A stretch of DNA of 64,000 nt from Prochlorococcus marinus XMU1411. Lineage in GTDB: Bacteria; Cyanobacteriota; Cyanobacteriia; PCC-6307; Cyanobiaceae. Each line of letters begins with the position of its first letter. The first letter of the stretch is position 1. A program made the position numbers and the translations under genes. The stretch spans positions 62,001-126,000 of the forward strand of contig NZ_JAAORI010000003.1 of the NCBI RefSeq assembly GCF_017696075.1, written 5' to 3'. A model generated the notes under the pieces. It was given only the letters and a program-made list of their open reading frames with translations. It searched no databases and was not told the DNA's origin. Positions 5,391 to 32,689 of the stretch are shown piece by piece.

Positions 5391-6553
5391 TTTTTGAAAT
5401 GATCTTTTAAGTCCATGTAAACTTTCTCAAGCAAATTTATATTTTGAGAAATTGTATATCTCTCAAGTACTCGATCTCTTGCTTTTCTTCCAAGATCTTT
5501 TGTAAATGAAGGATGTTCTATTAAAATTGGGAATATAGTTTTTAGCTGCTTAGCTACATTATCAGTTGATATTACTATACCTGCTCCTTTATCTAAAACT
5601 TCACCATCAGCGCCAGCATCTGTGGCTACGCATGCCGTGCCAGTAGACATTGCCTCTAAAAGTGATAATGACAAACCTTCTACTAAGCTTGGTAAGAAAA
5701 ATACCTCTGCTATTTGCATTATCGCTACCCTAGTTTCTAAATCTAACTCGGCACCCCACCAAATTAATTTATCAATACTAAGGTTAGAAAAACTATTTTC
5801 AAGTGTTGGCTTCATTGGGCCATCTCCAACAATAACTAATTTGCAATTATTGTTTTTTGTTTGGCGCCAAGAACGTAAAAGTGCTTCGATATTTTTTTCA
5901 TTGGCAATTCTTCCCATATATAAAAAGATCCTTTCATGTCCAAGTTTGTTTTTAACCCGATCATATTTTTTATTTTTTTCGCAAAAAGGTTTCCAAATAT
6001 TTTCATCAACGCCGTTTGGAATAATTATTAGTTTTTCTTTTGGTACACCTAATTTCTCAAGAACATTTTTTTGAAGTTCAGAAAAAATGATTAATTTATC
6101 AAACTTTGCCAAAGAGGGAGCATAAAGTTGATAAGTTAATTGTTGAGTGCTCGCAGTTAAATTTCTATTTTTTGCATCAAATGGTGGATGAAATGTTCCT
6201 ATAAGTGGAATGTTAATTTCATTACAAAGCTCTGGAAGTCTAAAGTCTAAAGGAGATAAAGTTAGGCTTGCATGTACTATGTCAGGTTTTAATCTTTCCA
6301 ATGATAGTCTTAGTTCTTTTTCTGCTCTTGGCGAAGGTATTGTATAAACTTGGGACTTAATTAAATATGGGAGACTTACATCAGGATCATTTGCCAGAAA
6401 TAATGGTTTTGATGAATTCGAACTAGATGGATTGTCGAAATGAATAAAACTAATTTTATGGCCTCTGGCCTTCAATTCCTCAGTAGTTGAGTTGCCGTAA
6501 GTTACATTTCCACAAAAAGGGGATTTTTTACCCAACCAGGCAATATGAACCAC
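5387..6553 (-). CDS. Family 4 glycosyltransferase (group 1)
   Basis: A 388-residue retaining GT-B glycosyltransferase. The C-terminal half holds IPNGVDENIWKP near 180-191, FLYMGRIANEKNIEALL (sugar-nucleotide domain), and the E-x7-E motif in EGLSLSLLEAMSTG. The N-terminal acceptor domain contains DIVHASLTLSPLDFRLP and GTFHPPFD. The start is GTG. I cannot name its acceptor; lipid or cell-surface glycan synthesis is the usual role, and it does not resemble SqdX closely at the N-terminus. It lies downstream of recO on the same strand with an 85-base gap, and overlaps proC by 4 bases tail to tail. Confidence 0.85.
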   Translation of the reverse strand: MVHIAWLGKKSPFCGNVTYGNSTTEELKARGHKISFIHFDNPSSSNSSKPLFLANDPDVSLPYLIKSQVYTIPSPRAEKELRLSLERLKPDIVHASLTLSPLDFRLPELCNEINIPLIGTFHPPFDAKNRNLTASTQQLTYQLYAPSLAKFDKLIIFSELQKNVLEKLGVPKEKLIIIPNGVDENIWKPFCEKNKKYDRVKNKLGHERIFLYMGRIANEKNIEALLRSWRQTKNNNCKLVIVGDGPMKPTLENSFSNLSIDKLIWWGAELDLETRVAIMQIAEVFFLPSLVEGLSLSLLEAMSTGTACVATDAGADGEVLDKGAGIVISTDNVAKQLKTIFPILIEHPSFTKDLGRKARDRVLERYTISQNINLLEKVYMDLKDHFKN

Positions 6554-30053: not shown

Positions 30054-30257
30054 ATGGCATACATAGAATGGGACTATACAGTAATAACAAGTATGGTAGA
30101 AAAACAAGGGTGGGATTTACCTGAGCGTGAATCTGAAGAATGGAATAAATTTAACGATGAATTAGGAGAAAAAATGAGAGGTGTTGGACTTATTTTTGAA
30201 AAATATTGTAAATTTACCCCTGACGTAGGAGAGGGAGTTCATCTTCTAGATGAATGA
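30054..30257 (+). CDS. Small acidic protein of unknown function
   Basis: A 67-residue soluble protein with several Trp/Tyr residues (IEWDYTVITSMVEKQGWDLP at the start) and many acidic residues. No family is recognised. It has no signal peptide, membrane segment or cysteine motif (one Cys). A possible promoter lies directly upstream and a 7-bp hairpin (CCATTGA/TCAATGG, 30276-30301) downstream, which suggests an independent short transcript. It is separated by 166-178 bases from the DCC/photolyase group. Confidence 0.65.
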   Translation: MAYIEWDYTVITSMVEKQGWDLPERESEEWNKFNDELGEKMRGVGLIFEKYCKFTPDVGEGVHLLDE

Positions 30258-30435
30258 TAATAAATAGTTTTAAACCATTGATGTATCCCTTAGTCAATGG
30301 CTTATTAATCTATAAGATAATATAATTTCACCAAATTAGAACTGGCAATTATAAAGGCTTTATAAAGCTTATACTCTAAAAAAAAATTTTTTATTCCACA
30401 AAAAAGTTATTTAATTTCTATATTTGAATAAAAAT

Positions 30436-30828
30436 ATGAAAAATAAATTAACCTTTTTATTCGATGGTGGTTGTCCACTTTGTTTGAGAGAAACAAATTT
30501 TCTAAAAAAAAGAGATATCTTAAATCAAATTGCATTTATAGATATTAATAGTAAGGATTATGATCAAACTCTTTTTAACGACATCTCATACTCAGAAGCT
30601 ATGTCAAACCTGCATGGGATTATGGAAAATGGTGAAATTATTAAGGGACTAGATGTACTTGCATATTCTTATGAATTAGTTGGTTTAGGTTGGGTTTATT
30701 ATCCCTTGAAGATTAATCTCTTTTCTCCATTATTGAGACTGGTTTATAGATATTGGGCAAAATATAGACTTCAAATTACAGGTAGATCAGATATAGAAAA
30801 ACTTTGTACCTCACAATGTGAACAATAA
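30436..30828 (+). CDS. DCC-family thiol-disulfide oxidoreductase-like protein (DUF393)
   Basis: A 130-residue protein with the DCC motif: FDGGCPLC near residues 9-16, i.e. D-G-x-C-P-x-C, close to the N-terminus. The family is predicted to have thiol-disulfide activity, but no substrate is established. C-terminal Cys residues (LCTSQCEQ) add a second possible redox pair. I start at the ATG at 30436; a TTG at 30424 would add four residues. It is 2 bases upstream of the TIGR03643 gene and opens the photolyase group, so a role with the photolyase or its thiol state is possible but unproven. Confidence 0.85.
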   Translation: MKNKLTFLFDGGCPLCLRETNFLKKRDILNQIAFIDINSKDYDQTLFNDISYSEAMSNLHGIMENGEIIKGLDVLAYSYELVGLGWVYYPLKINLFSPLLRLVYRYWAKYRLQITGRSDIEKLCTSQCEQ

Positions 30829-30830
30829 AT

Positions 30831-31067
30831 ATGGAAAGTATCGACATAGACAGAATAATAGAAATGTGTTGGGAAGATAGAACACCCTTTGAAGCTATCG
30901 AGTATCAATTTGGTTTAAAAGAGGAAGATGCGATAAAAATTATGCGTCAAAATCTTAAACCCAAATCCTTCAAAGTCTGGAGAAAGAGAGTTTCGGGAAG
31001 AAATACAAAACATATGGCGCTTAAAGATTCAACTAGATTTAAATCTACTCATAAAAGAAAATTATAA
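30831..31067 (+). CDS. TIGR03643 family protein (photolyase-associated)
   Basis: A 78-residue protein with an N-terminal helical part (IDRIIEMCWEDRTPFEAIEYQFGL) and a very basic C-terminal half (KPKSFKVWRKRVSGRNTKH). It matches the TIGR03643 family, known from genomes that carry the cryptochrome/photolyase-related protein. The helix pattern resembles a helix-turn-helix and the basic tail suggests nucleic-acid contact, but no function is established. It lies 2 bases after the DCC gene and 3 bases before the DUF2256 gene. Confidence 0.85.
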   Translation: MESIDIDRIIEMCWEDRTPFEAIEYQFGLKEEDAIKIMRQNLKPKSFKVWRKRVSGRNTKHMALKDSTRFKSTHKRKL

Positions 31068-31070
31068 ATT

Positions 31071-31202
31071 TTGAAAAATCTTACTACTAAAACATGTCCT
31101 GTTTGCAATAGGCCGTTCGAGTGGCGTAAAAAATGGAAAAACTGTTGGGATAATGTTATCTACTGTTCAAAAAGATGCAGTAACAGGAAGTCTCAAAGAT
31201 GA
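31071..31202 (+). CDS. DUF2256 zinc-finger mini-protein
   Basis: A 43-residue protein starting at TTG 31071, 3 bases after TIGR03643. Cysteines at 9, 12, 32 and 36 ([19 protein letters not shown] ... YCSKRC) form a C-x2-C-x19-C-x3-C finger, and an extra Cys lies at 25. This is the DUF2256 pattern. The basic, Trp-rich centre suggests nucleic-acid or protein contact. Its TGA overlaps the ATG of the photolyase gene (ATGA), so the two are translationally coupled. The short length makes it easy for gene finders to miss. Confidence 0.88.
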
Positions 31203-32689
31203 AACAAGTATCAATTATTTTCCCGAATCAACTTTTTAGAGAAAGCCCAATCTTAAAAATAAATTGTGAAGTTTTGATTTTGGAAGACTCATTATTTTTT
31301 GGAAATGATAAATTTTATAAATTAATTAACCATAAAAATAAGTTAGTTTTTCATAGAGCATCTATGCTTGCTTATAAAAATTATTTAGAAATATCTGGCT
31401 TTAAAGTTTTATATATCGAAAACAAGAATAATTTTTCTACAGTTGATTACTTATCGGAATTTATTAAAAATAAATATCAGAAAATAAATCTCATTGACCC
31501 TCATGATTTTTTAATAATGAAGAGGATTAATAATTTTGTTGAAAGTAATAATTTAGCTTTAAATATTTTGCCTTCTCCTATGTTTATGAGCAGTGAAGAT
31601 TTAAAAGATTTATTTGCAACAAATAAAAAAAAACCTCTTATGGGGAGATTTTATGAGAATCAAAGAAAGAGCCAAAAGATATTAGTTAATCCTGATGATA
31701 CACCTGAAGGGGGTAAATGGAGTTTCGATGAAATGAATAGAAAAAAATTACCAAAAAAAATAAATATACCCGATACACCTAAATTACAAAAAAATAAATT
31801 TGTAGTTAATGCAGAAAGGTCATTAGCCAATGTTGATATTGAGTTTATTGGAGAAAGTAATAACTTTTTATATCCAACTAATTTTGAAGAGGCAGATGAA
31901 TGGTTAAATGATTTTTTTAAACATAGATTTTTCTTATTTGGAGATTATGAGGATGCTATTTCTAAAGAAAATTCTTTTTTATGGCACAGTTTACTTTCTC
32001 CTCTTTTAAATAGCGGCTTATTAACCCCAGATGTAGTAGTGAATAAAGCATTACTTTTCGCAAAAAATAATAATGTTCCTATTAACTCTTTAGAGGGTTT
32101 TATTCGTCAAATCATTGGATGGAGAGAATTTATTTGCCTCGTCTATAAAAAGTACGGAACAAAGATGCGAAATAGTAATTTTTGGAATTTTGAAGATAAG
32201 CCAATTCCAAAATCTTTTTATCAAGGAAATACAGGAATTGAACCAGTAGACGTTGTTATAAAAAATATTATTAAATTTGGTTATTGTCATCATATTGAGC
32301 GGCTAATGATTGTTGGAAACTTTATGCTTCTATGTAGAATTCACCCCAACCAAGTTTATAAATGGTTTATGGAAATGTTTATTGATTCTTATGATTGGGT
32401 TATGGTCCCAAATGTTTACGGAATGAGTCAGTTTAGTGATGGAGGTATCTTTTCAACAAAGCCATATATATCAAGCTCTAATTATGTAAAAAAAATGTCT
32501 AATTTTAAAAGTGGCCCATGGTGTGAAATATGGGATGGCTTATTTTGGAAATTCATTAATGATAATGAAAGCTTTTTTAGAAAGCAATATCGTCTGGCAA
32601 TGTTAACGAGAAATCTCGATAAAATGTCAGAGGAAAAATTAAATAATCACCTAAAAACGGCTGATAAATTTTTAAAAGATATTCAATAA
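31199..32689 (+). CDS. Cryptochrome/photolyase-related protein, FeS-BCP ((6-4) photolyase) family
   Basis: A 496-residue flavoprotein of the bacterial FeS-BCP/PhrB group, whose characterised members repair (6-4) photoproducts with blue light. Visible are the N-terminal Rossmann antenna domain (IIFPNQLF), [22 protein letters not shown] (361-370, with the His pair needed in relatives) and [21 protein letters not shown]. The family's cluster cysteines seem lost: only Cys442 lies between MSNFK (433) and the LFWKF block, and Pro349 sits near the first ligand position. So it is probably a cluster-free variant. It overlaps DUF2256 by 4 bases. Confidence 0.88.

Follow-up and report, generated by a model that had tools for sequence, protein, structure and literature searches.

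What do three small genes do when they are packed against a photolyase gene? A 64,000-nucleotide stretch of the Prochlorococcus marinus XMU1411 genome (1.67 Mb), here called the window, holds such a set (Table 1). A sequence-only reading had proposed four genes separated by gaps of 2 and 3 bases and one ATGA overlap, in which the small proteins accompany a FeS-BCP-type photolyase. We compared the locus with cyanobacterial, Bacteroidota, plasmid and viral sequences.

A conserved four-gene locus

The open reading frame calls confirmed the proposed arrangement: 2 bases separate the DCC gene from the TIGR03643 gene, 3 bases separate the latter from the DUF2256 gene, and the DUF2256 and photolyase genes overlap in ATGA. 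The DCC protein carries a GGCPLC motif, read from the sequence. An in-frame TTG at 30424 would lengthen this protein to 134 aa if used as the start. Named Prochlorococcus records contain an identical TIGR03643 protein.

Table 1. Features of the four-gene locus, in window positions
Product	Position	Strand	Length and start	Family score (cut-off), bits
DCC1-like thiol-disulfide oxidoreductase family protein	30436..30828	+	130 aa	PF04134 84.2 (27.8)
TIGR03643 / DUF2805	30831..31067	+	78 aa	TIGR03643 123.7 (66.55); PF10985 111.2 (22.5)
DUF2256	31071..31202	+	43 aa, TTG start	PF10013 66.6 (25)
DPRP photolyase	31199..32689	+	496 aa	PF04244 148.6 (22.1); PF03441 32.5 (27)

Of 26 Prochlorococcus loci that contain all four genes, 23 retained the junction spacing; 24 of the 26 came from the best 80 of 569 TIGR03643 scan candidates. 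The exceptions were a locus with broken genes (L103), one with a longer TIGR03643 start (L113) and one with a gap of 3 (L119). One four-gene locus (L099) lies on a contig labelled Rhodobacteraceae, which we take to be Prochlorococcus contamination. In the 24 four-gene loci from that scan, TrmH was a neighbour in 24/24, LepA and an upstream transporter protein in 23, RsmB in 22 and a penicillin-binding protein in 21. The misses fall on L099, whose contig spans 3.4 kb, and on L115 and L119, which are short on that side. Promoter- and terminator-like matches at the locus showed no excess over shuffled sequence. The spacing and its conservation suggest that the four genes would be read as one transcript.

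The core of TIGR03643, DUF2256 and DPRP genes sits at two Prochlorococcus loci. The window's group has it near lepA and accompanied by DCC, whereas a second group (g89) has it at another place and without DCC. In one g89-type locus (L247), genes for a peroxiredoxin and for another FAD_binding_7 protein come after the core. Judging from records (MIT 9201 in the first) and from PMC9426592, the two groups are probably those called "high-light" and "LLI".

A photolyase devoid of iron-sulfur ligands

The window's photolyase combines the DPRP N-terminal domain (PF04244) with an FAD-binding domain (PF03441), and its PDB matches include PhrB and CryB. The FeS-BCP label of the sequence-only reading did not survive alignment, as all four cluster cysteines are missing. 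The ligand columns read P--E instead of CCCC; in the alignment to PDB 4dja, C350 of PhrB falls on P349 of the window enzyme and the CxxC is deleted. FeS-BCP membership is thus ruled out despite the DPRP domain architecture. In an alignment of 108 DPRPs (reading frames of >440 aa and >100 bits, identical sequences entered once), 66 had CCCC and 42 had Pro/gap/gap/other, with no intermediates. Upon addition of 11 sequences, all four ligands were present in 66/119 and all were missing in 53/119. A quick-method tree, which gave long-branch warnings and does not include PromaPL itself, split 31 Fe-S-less rows from 12 Fe-S rows by a single branch (SH-aLRT 99).

The enzyme shares the DPRP fold with Agrobacterium PhrB and the FeS-BCP (CryPro) proteins, and it keeps His366, Leu370, Trp390 and Tyr424 of PhrB. 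Mapped by hand on the 4dja alignment, PhrB H366 corresponds to H365 and Y424 to Y423 of the window protein; likewise, W390 corresponds to W389, and L370 is kept. Unlike PhrB, which has four Fe-S cysteines, Trp342 and Tyr391, the window enzyme has none of the cysteines, and Tyr and Phe occupy the latter two positions. Excerpts of PMC4619345 describe H366 as the catalytic histidine and Y424 as a lesion-binding tyrosine of PhrB, and report that mutation of the aligned residues matters.

Fe-S-less prokaryotic photolyases have been described as PromaPL or subgroup M (PMC9178010 and PMC9426592, in part). PromaPL, encoded by phr2 in marine picocyanobacteria, belongs to the same family and likewise has no Fe-S ligands, and the window enzyme would correspond to an Fe-S-less prokaryotic (6-4) photolyase of this type. 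The neighbouring DUF2256, TIGR03643 and DCC genes are not mentioned in the available portions of either paper. In one passage of PMC9426592, the missing cluster is taken to make Phr2 a likely CPD photolyase, leaving Prochlorococcus without a (6-4) enzyme; another passage of the same source names PromaPL a (6-4) photolyase. We favour (6-4) specificity for the window enzyme, as predicted from the kept histidine and tyrosine.

Association of DUF2256 with DPRP across genomes

Our survey of 111 Cyanobiaceae genomes found DUF2256 and DPRP together in 76, DUF2256 only in 1, DPRP only in 7 and neither in 27. The DUF2256-only genome (G118) is a draft, and all seven DPRP-only genomes are multi-contig; among single-contig genomes, DUF2256 was present in 36/36 with DPRP and in 0/9 without it. 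Restricting the counts to the 93 genomes with a FAD_binding_7 match gave 76 with both, 1 with DUF2256 only, 7 with DPRP only and 9 with neither. DUF2256 was therefore found in 76/83 FAD_binding_7-bearing genomes with DPRP versus 1/10 without it, so having some photolyase is not enough. Within the g89 group, a single genome (G195) was devoid of DPRP, DUF2256 and TIGR03643 together, and its six sisters in our tables have all three.

A similar picture emerged from 148 Bacteroidota genomes, of which 46 had both families, 4 DUF2256 only, 3 DPRP only and 95 neither. Among the four DUF2256-only genomes, one had a match under the cut-off and one a short match. Fisher p values for the Cyanobiaceae and Bacteroidota counts ignore relatedness, and habitat may explain part of the pattern in Bacteroidota, where other photolyases were not counted. 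In 14 control genomes, DUF2256 matched Caulobacter and S. elongatus, both bacteria among the three DPRP-matching genomes; Haloferax had a DPRP match without DUF2256. FAD_binding_7 matched 7 of the 14 controls (6 over the cut-off), including E. coli and C. glutamicum, both without DUF2256.

On a LepA tree of 28 Cyanobiaceae genomes, in which 14 of 25 inner branches were weak, DPRP changed 5 times and DUF2256 4 times. Thirty genomes had been entered, and two (G115 and G128) gave only LepA paralogues. In the three contrasts that lie on well-supported branches, DUF2256 changed in the same direction as DPRP in 2 or 3 and never in the opposite one; these contrasts were not significant because the independent events were too few.

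The sequence-only reading had proposed both small families as companions of this photolyase. For DUF2256, the proposal held in the two samples above, where the tracking is near one-to-one, and loosened in a wider cyanobacterial sample of 107 genomes. There, a hand count gave DUF2256 in 48, DPRP in 33 (one a fragment) and both in 30; 18/48 DUF2256 genomes had no DPRP, and 3/33 DPRP genomes had no DUF2256. The near one-to-one tracking in two samples is new here. The literature searched, which covered few subscription journals, gave no DUF2256-photolyase link in the portions available, but this does not prove novelty.

Linkage added a second line of evidence. In Bacteroidota, 21/46 DUF2256-DPRP pairs were same-strand and no more than 2.5 kb apart, with DUF2256 upstream in 20/21. 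DUF2256 is also upstream in Prochlorococcus, an order opposite to that on a Rhizobium plasmid, where DUF2256 starts 34 bases downstream of DPRP, and on an Acinetobacter plasmid, where DPRP followed by DUF2256 is convergent with TIGR03643. The Acinetobacter layout recurred on one IMG/VR contig. Within Cyanobiaceae, 15/76 pairs were no more than 3 kb apart, and the two Prochlorococcus groups account for 14 of these. The flanks of 39 cyanobacterial DUF2256 loci, from genomes with and without DPRP, held a photolyase-like gene in 0/39 (30 loci covered up to 1.5 kb per side and nine up to ~6 kb). On Salinivibrio and Tritonibacter plasmids, the photolyase that adjoins DUF2256 belongs to a different class, so DUF2256 may have partners beyond DPRP. 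Plasmids of Pantoea, Deinococcus (short on one side) and Spirosoma carried DUF2256 and no photolyase in the fetched stretch. No fusions of the small proteins with photolyases were found in the fetched loci. Public annotation already shows neighbourhoods of this kind.

Flavobacterial photolyase runs resemble the Prochlorococcus core in that DUF2256, DPRP and TIGR03643 lie only a few genes from one another and share a strand. These runs differ in having further photolyase-family and other genes in between, and DCC was not found in them. Both DUF2256 and TIGR03643 occur there with Fe-S DPRPs or with Fe-S-less ones. Part of PMC2955971 likewise describes a small operon for repair that includes a photolyase gene, but there a Nudix hydrolase gene and phrB lie between folK and degT, so that locus and partner differ.

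Streamlined genomes have tight gene packing, and the Prochlorococcus cluster might be a chance operon of small, independent genes. The Synechococcus-like g60 and g76 relatives, which hold DPRP, DUF2256 and TIGR03643 at separate places, fit such an account. However, linkage of these families recurs in Bacteroidota and on plasmids, and two Prochlorococcus lineages keep the three-gene core at different loci. We therefore regard packing by streamlining as improbable.

A broader alternative is that DUF2256 and TIGR03643 are part of a gene set for light/UV or photo-oxidative stress and share regulation or habitat with the photolyase without acting on it. Several neighbourhoods are compatible with this alternative. 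The flavobacterial runs include, besides further photolyase-family genes, GTP cyclohydrolase I followed by SDR- and glutathione-peroxidase-like genes (the latter two read from sequence by eye, without a family search). The g89-type locus contains the peroxiredoxin and the second FAD_binding_7 protein, and viral TIGR03643 genes sit next to flavodoxin-fold reductases, SHMT or ThyA. A gut or dark lifestyle may also underlie the joint absence in Bacteroidota, where other photolyases went uncounted. What argues against this alternative is that DUF2256 tracks DPRP even among FAD_binding_7-bearing Cyanobiaceae, and that linkage arises in several lineages with differing gene orders. We consider this alternative unlikely, while still giving it real weight.

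The recurrence of the core also raises the question of its origin. The photolyase tree placed Prochlorococcus nearest the g60/g76 genomes (SH-aLRT 96, in a quick tree with long-branch warnings). We also considered acquisition of the cassette from Bacteroidota; holding the Prochlorococcus photolyase with Bacteroidota was not rejected (p-AU 0.117). For TIGR03643, the free tree drew Prochlorococcus towards Bacteroidota, a weakly supported placement (48/86), but uniting Prochlorococcus and Synechococcus in one clade gave a higher likelihood and was allowed (p-AU 0.614), so the tree of this family is compatible with either placement. TIGR03643 proteins of g60 and g76 grouped with named Synechococcus records. 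The simplest reading is that the cluster arose separately in Prochlorococcus and Bacteroidota.

Possible roles of the small proteins

Four cysteines of DUF2256 (C9, C12, C32 and C36; CX2C...CX3C) were invariant in 52 sequences, as was a core of W18, R19 and W22 amid them, and the protein has a net charge of +10. Its structure model (pLDDT 81.6) gave weak Foldseek top matches to 4tma (prob 0.75-0.92, E 0.29-0.46), which is gyrase bound to YacG, and to 2w0t (E 2.4); YacG and an FCS zinc finger were the nearest folds. A PDB profile search returned weak matches to L24 and zinc fingers (best E 0.031). DUF2256 belongs to the TRASH clan, and its cysteine pattern and clan are common to the gyrase-inhibiting zinc finger YacG (DUF329) and to zf-FCS (PMC4047054, in part). 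DUF2256 is not YacG itself: the curated model NF001638 gave 11.5 bits against a cut-off of 83. Clan and fold suggest that DUF2256 may bind zinc. YacG is known to bind another protein, gyrase, and the modelled likeness of DUF2256 to it (E about 0.3) may serve as a lead. The family is frequent among small bacterial proteins, according to a portion of PMC11796252. In the section available from a Xanthomonas study, PF10013 stands in a table of plant-association features, with no mention of a photolyase.

A four-cysteine protein beside a photolyase could also deliver iron-sulfur clusters or metal to Fe-S photolyases and be a relic in the window. Consistent with such a role, 66/119 DPRPs carry all four ligands, five loci with an Fe-S-less DPRP (L127, L129, L130, L136 and L139) had no DUF2256 in reach, and genome G010 combines an Fe-S-less DPRP with no DUF2256. 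On the other hand, many of the 53/119 ligand-less DPRPs still lie beside a four-cysteine DUF2256, both in Prochlorococcus and in flavobacteria (L155, L160, L163, L170, L173 and L175). Since DUF2256 is kept with Fe-S and Fe-S-less DPRPs alike, cluster insertion is unlikely to be its job, and we judge delivery of metal or cluster to be very improbable.

TIGR03643 proved to be a looser companion of the photolyase than DUF2256. In Cyanobiaceae, 32/32 genomes with TIGR03643 also had DPRP, and DPRP was present in 42/47 non-cyanobacterial genomes found via TIGR03643 (mostly Bacteroidota) versus 49/148 in the Bacteroidota sample. At these 47 loci themselves, DPRP was found in 24, DUF2256 in 22 and both in 18. 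Yet among cyanobacterial genomes with TIGR03643, DPRP was present in 12/21 (one a fragment) and missing in 9/21. TIGR03643 also occurred on 79 viral contigs, with no photolyase in the fetched stretch of 78/79 loci. The 38 loci left after dereplication of the 79 viral ones gave 74 neighbours; among the 60 of these that were scanned, we found flavodoxin-fold reductases (5), SHMT (2), ThyA (1) and ribonucleotide reductase (1). Vibrio and Pseudoalteromonas plasmids had TIGR03643 and no photolyase in the stretch, and phage records gave neither TIGR03643 nor DPRP matches. The idea of a photolyase-only family was weakened by the viral contigs and the other cyanobacteria.

The TIGR03643 model (pLDDT 77) is helical, with a helix-turn-helix-like pair at 20-27 and 31-41, and residues 41-78 form a basic tail with 14 K/R and 1 D/E. 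The best fold comparison (2znz; Z 4.0, rmsd 3.1 over 47 residues) and the best Foldseek match (E 5.6) were weak, and a PDB profile search gave no match up to E 1. Lrp-type DNA-binding domains are among these weak fold matches. TIGR03643 probably serves more widely as a DNA-binding helper. The literature searched, which covered few subscription journals, contained no mention of TIGR03643 or COG4338. In the part seen of PMC3597751, DUF2805 is placed statistically near translation-related domains in metagenomes and nothing more is said of it; the available portions of PMC9649867, PMC5241685, PMC9239080 and PMC3765255 contain nothing on these small proteins.

The proposed membership of DCC in a general module failed: the gene was seen beside these families only in the four-gene Prochlorococcus set and in a single further cyanobacterium (L064), where DCC is paired with TIGR03643, and none was found in the 47 non-cyanobacterial loci with the window's DCC as query, a search that a diverged DCC could escape. 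Being so lineage-bound, DCC is not essential. Overall, the co-occurrence and neighbourhood comparison sustained the companion claim for DUF2256 in Cyanobiaceae and Bacteroidota, in part for TIGR03643 and not for DCC.

The explanation that we prefer, at about even odds, is that the locus is a (6-4) photoreactivation operon with DUF2256 as a dedicated accessory zinc finger. Co-occurrence, the ATGA overlap, the +10 charge, the invariant cysteines with W18, R19 and W22, and the YacG-like model together suggest that the photolyase, or DNA close to it, is what DUF2256 acts on. DUF2256 would most likely bind the photolyase and/or DNA beside the lesion, and may load or hold the enzyme on DNA or stabilise its fold. 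Two members would be optional: TIGR03643, with its HTH-like core and basic tail, could help by binding DNA or could act as a regulator, and DCC could serve in thiol redox in the window's Prochlorococcus group. From these observations we infer a physical partnership between DUF2256 and DPRP, with an effect on repair. Such an effect need not be absolute: production in E. coli, which has no DUF2256 match, yields PhrB and SePhrB that repair lesions (portions of PMC4619345 and PMC9178010), so DUF2256 is not strictly required. More generally, and more tentatively, bacterial (6-4) photolyases of the DPRP class, with or without Fe-S, could have in DUF2256 a second subunit or a loading factor dedicated to them; the enzymes so far studied would then have been examined without their natural partner, and the operons would have been assembled several times independently.

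The presence of DUF2256 with ligand-less enzymes too separates two questions, namely, the purpose of the cluster and how the Fe-S-less forms are held together. If the proposed partnership is true, a function could be assigned to DUF2256, a domain of unknown function, and prokaryotic (6-4) photolyases would need to be re-measured biochemically with DUF2256.

The Prochlorococcus gene cluster: upstream sequence and irregular copies

Upstream of the cluster in the window lies a 67-aa open reading frame (Table), for which we detected no Pfam match above the cut-off and no NCBIfam match.

Table. Coordinates of features outside the cluster
Feature	Sequence	Position
67-aa ORF	Window	30054-30257
TIGR03643	L064 (genome G099)	6048-6302
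DCC	L064 (genome G099)	5550-6017

The Prochlorococcus cluster was also found on JABSSB010000278.1 (L099), a contig of a 'Rhodobacteraceae' metagenome-assembled genome, where TIGR03643 is 100% identical to that of the window; this occurrence is probably contamination. Two single-cell Prochlorococcus genomes, AG-409-A10 and AG-436-E22 (loci L148 and L103), carry the gene for DPRP, the PF04244 photolyase, split into several pieces, and at L103 the DCC gene is broken too. The DUF2256 and TIGR03643 reading frames are open at both loci. The fragmentation reflects either decay or sequencing errors.

Relatives on viral contigs

TIGR03643 relatives are encoded on 79 IMG/VR viral contigs (L269-L347) of up to 380 kb, some adjoining genes for a flavodoxin-like reductase, SHMT, ThyA or RNR. 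The one protein of this set scanned against PHROG families gave no match at E 0.001. DUF2256-like proteins are encoded on 36 viral contigs (L348-L383), and many share a single value of 65% identity across residues 3-36. Apart from L382, none of these contigs has a photolyase label near the DUF2256 gene. These genes are perhaps prophage-borne.

TIGR03643-DCC without DPRP, and DPRP types in flavobacteria

A distant cyanobacterium (G099) carries a TIGR03643-DCC pair at locus L064, and its genome lacks DPRP. Among flavobacteria, similar gene runs hold at one position a DPRP without the four cluster cysteines (Fe-S-less; L155, L160, L163, L170, L173 and L175) in some genomes and an Fe-S-type DPRP (L131, L134, L150, L162, L165 and L171) in others, as if the two forms had been swapped in situ.
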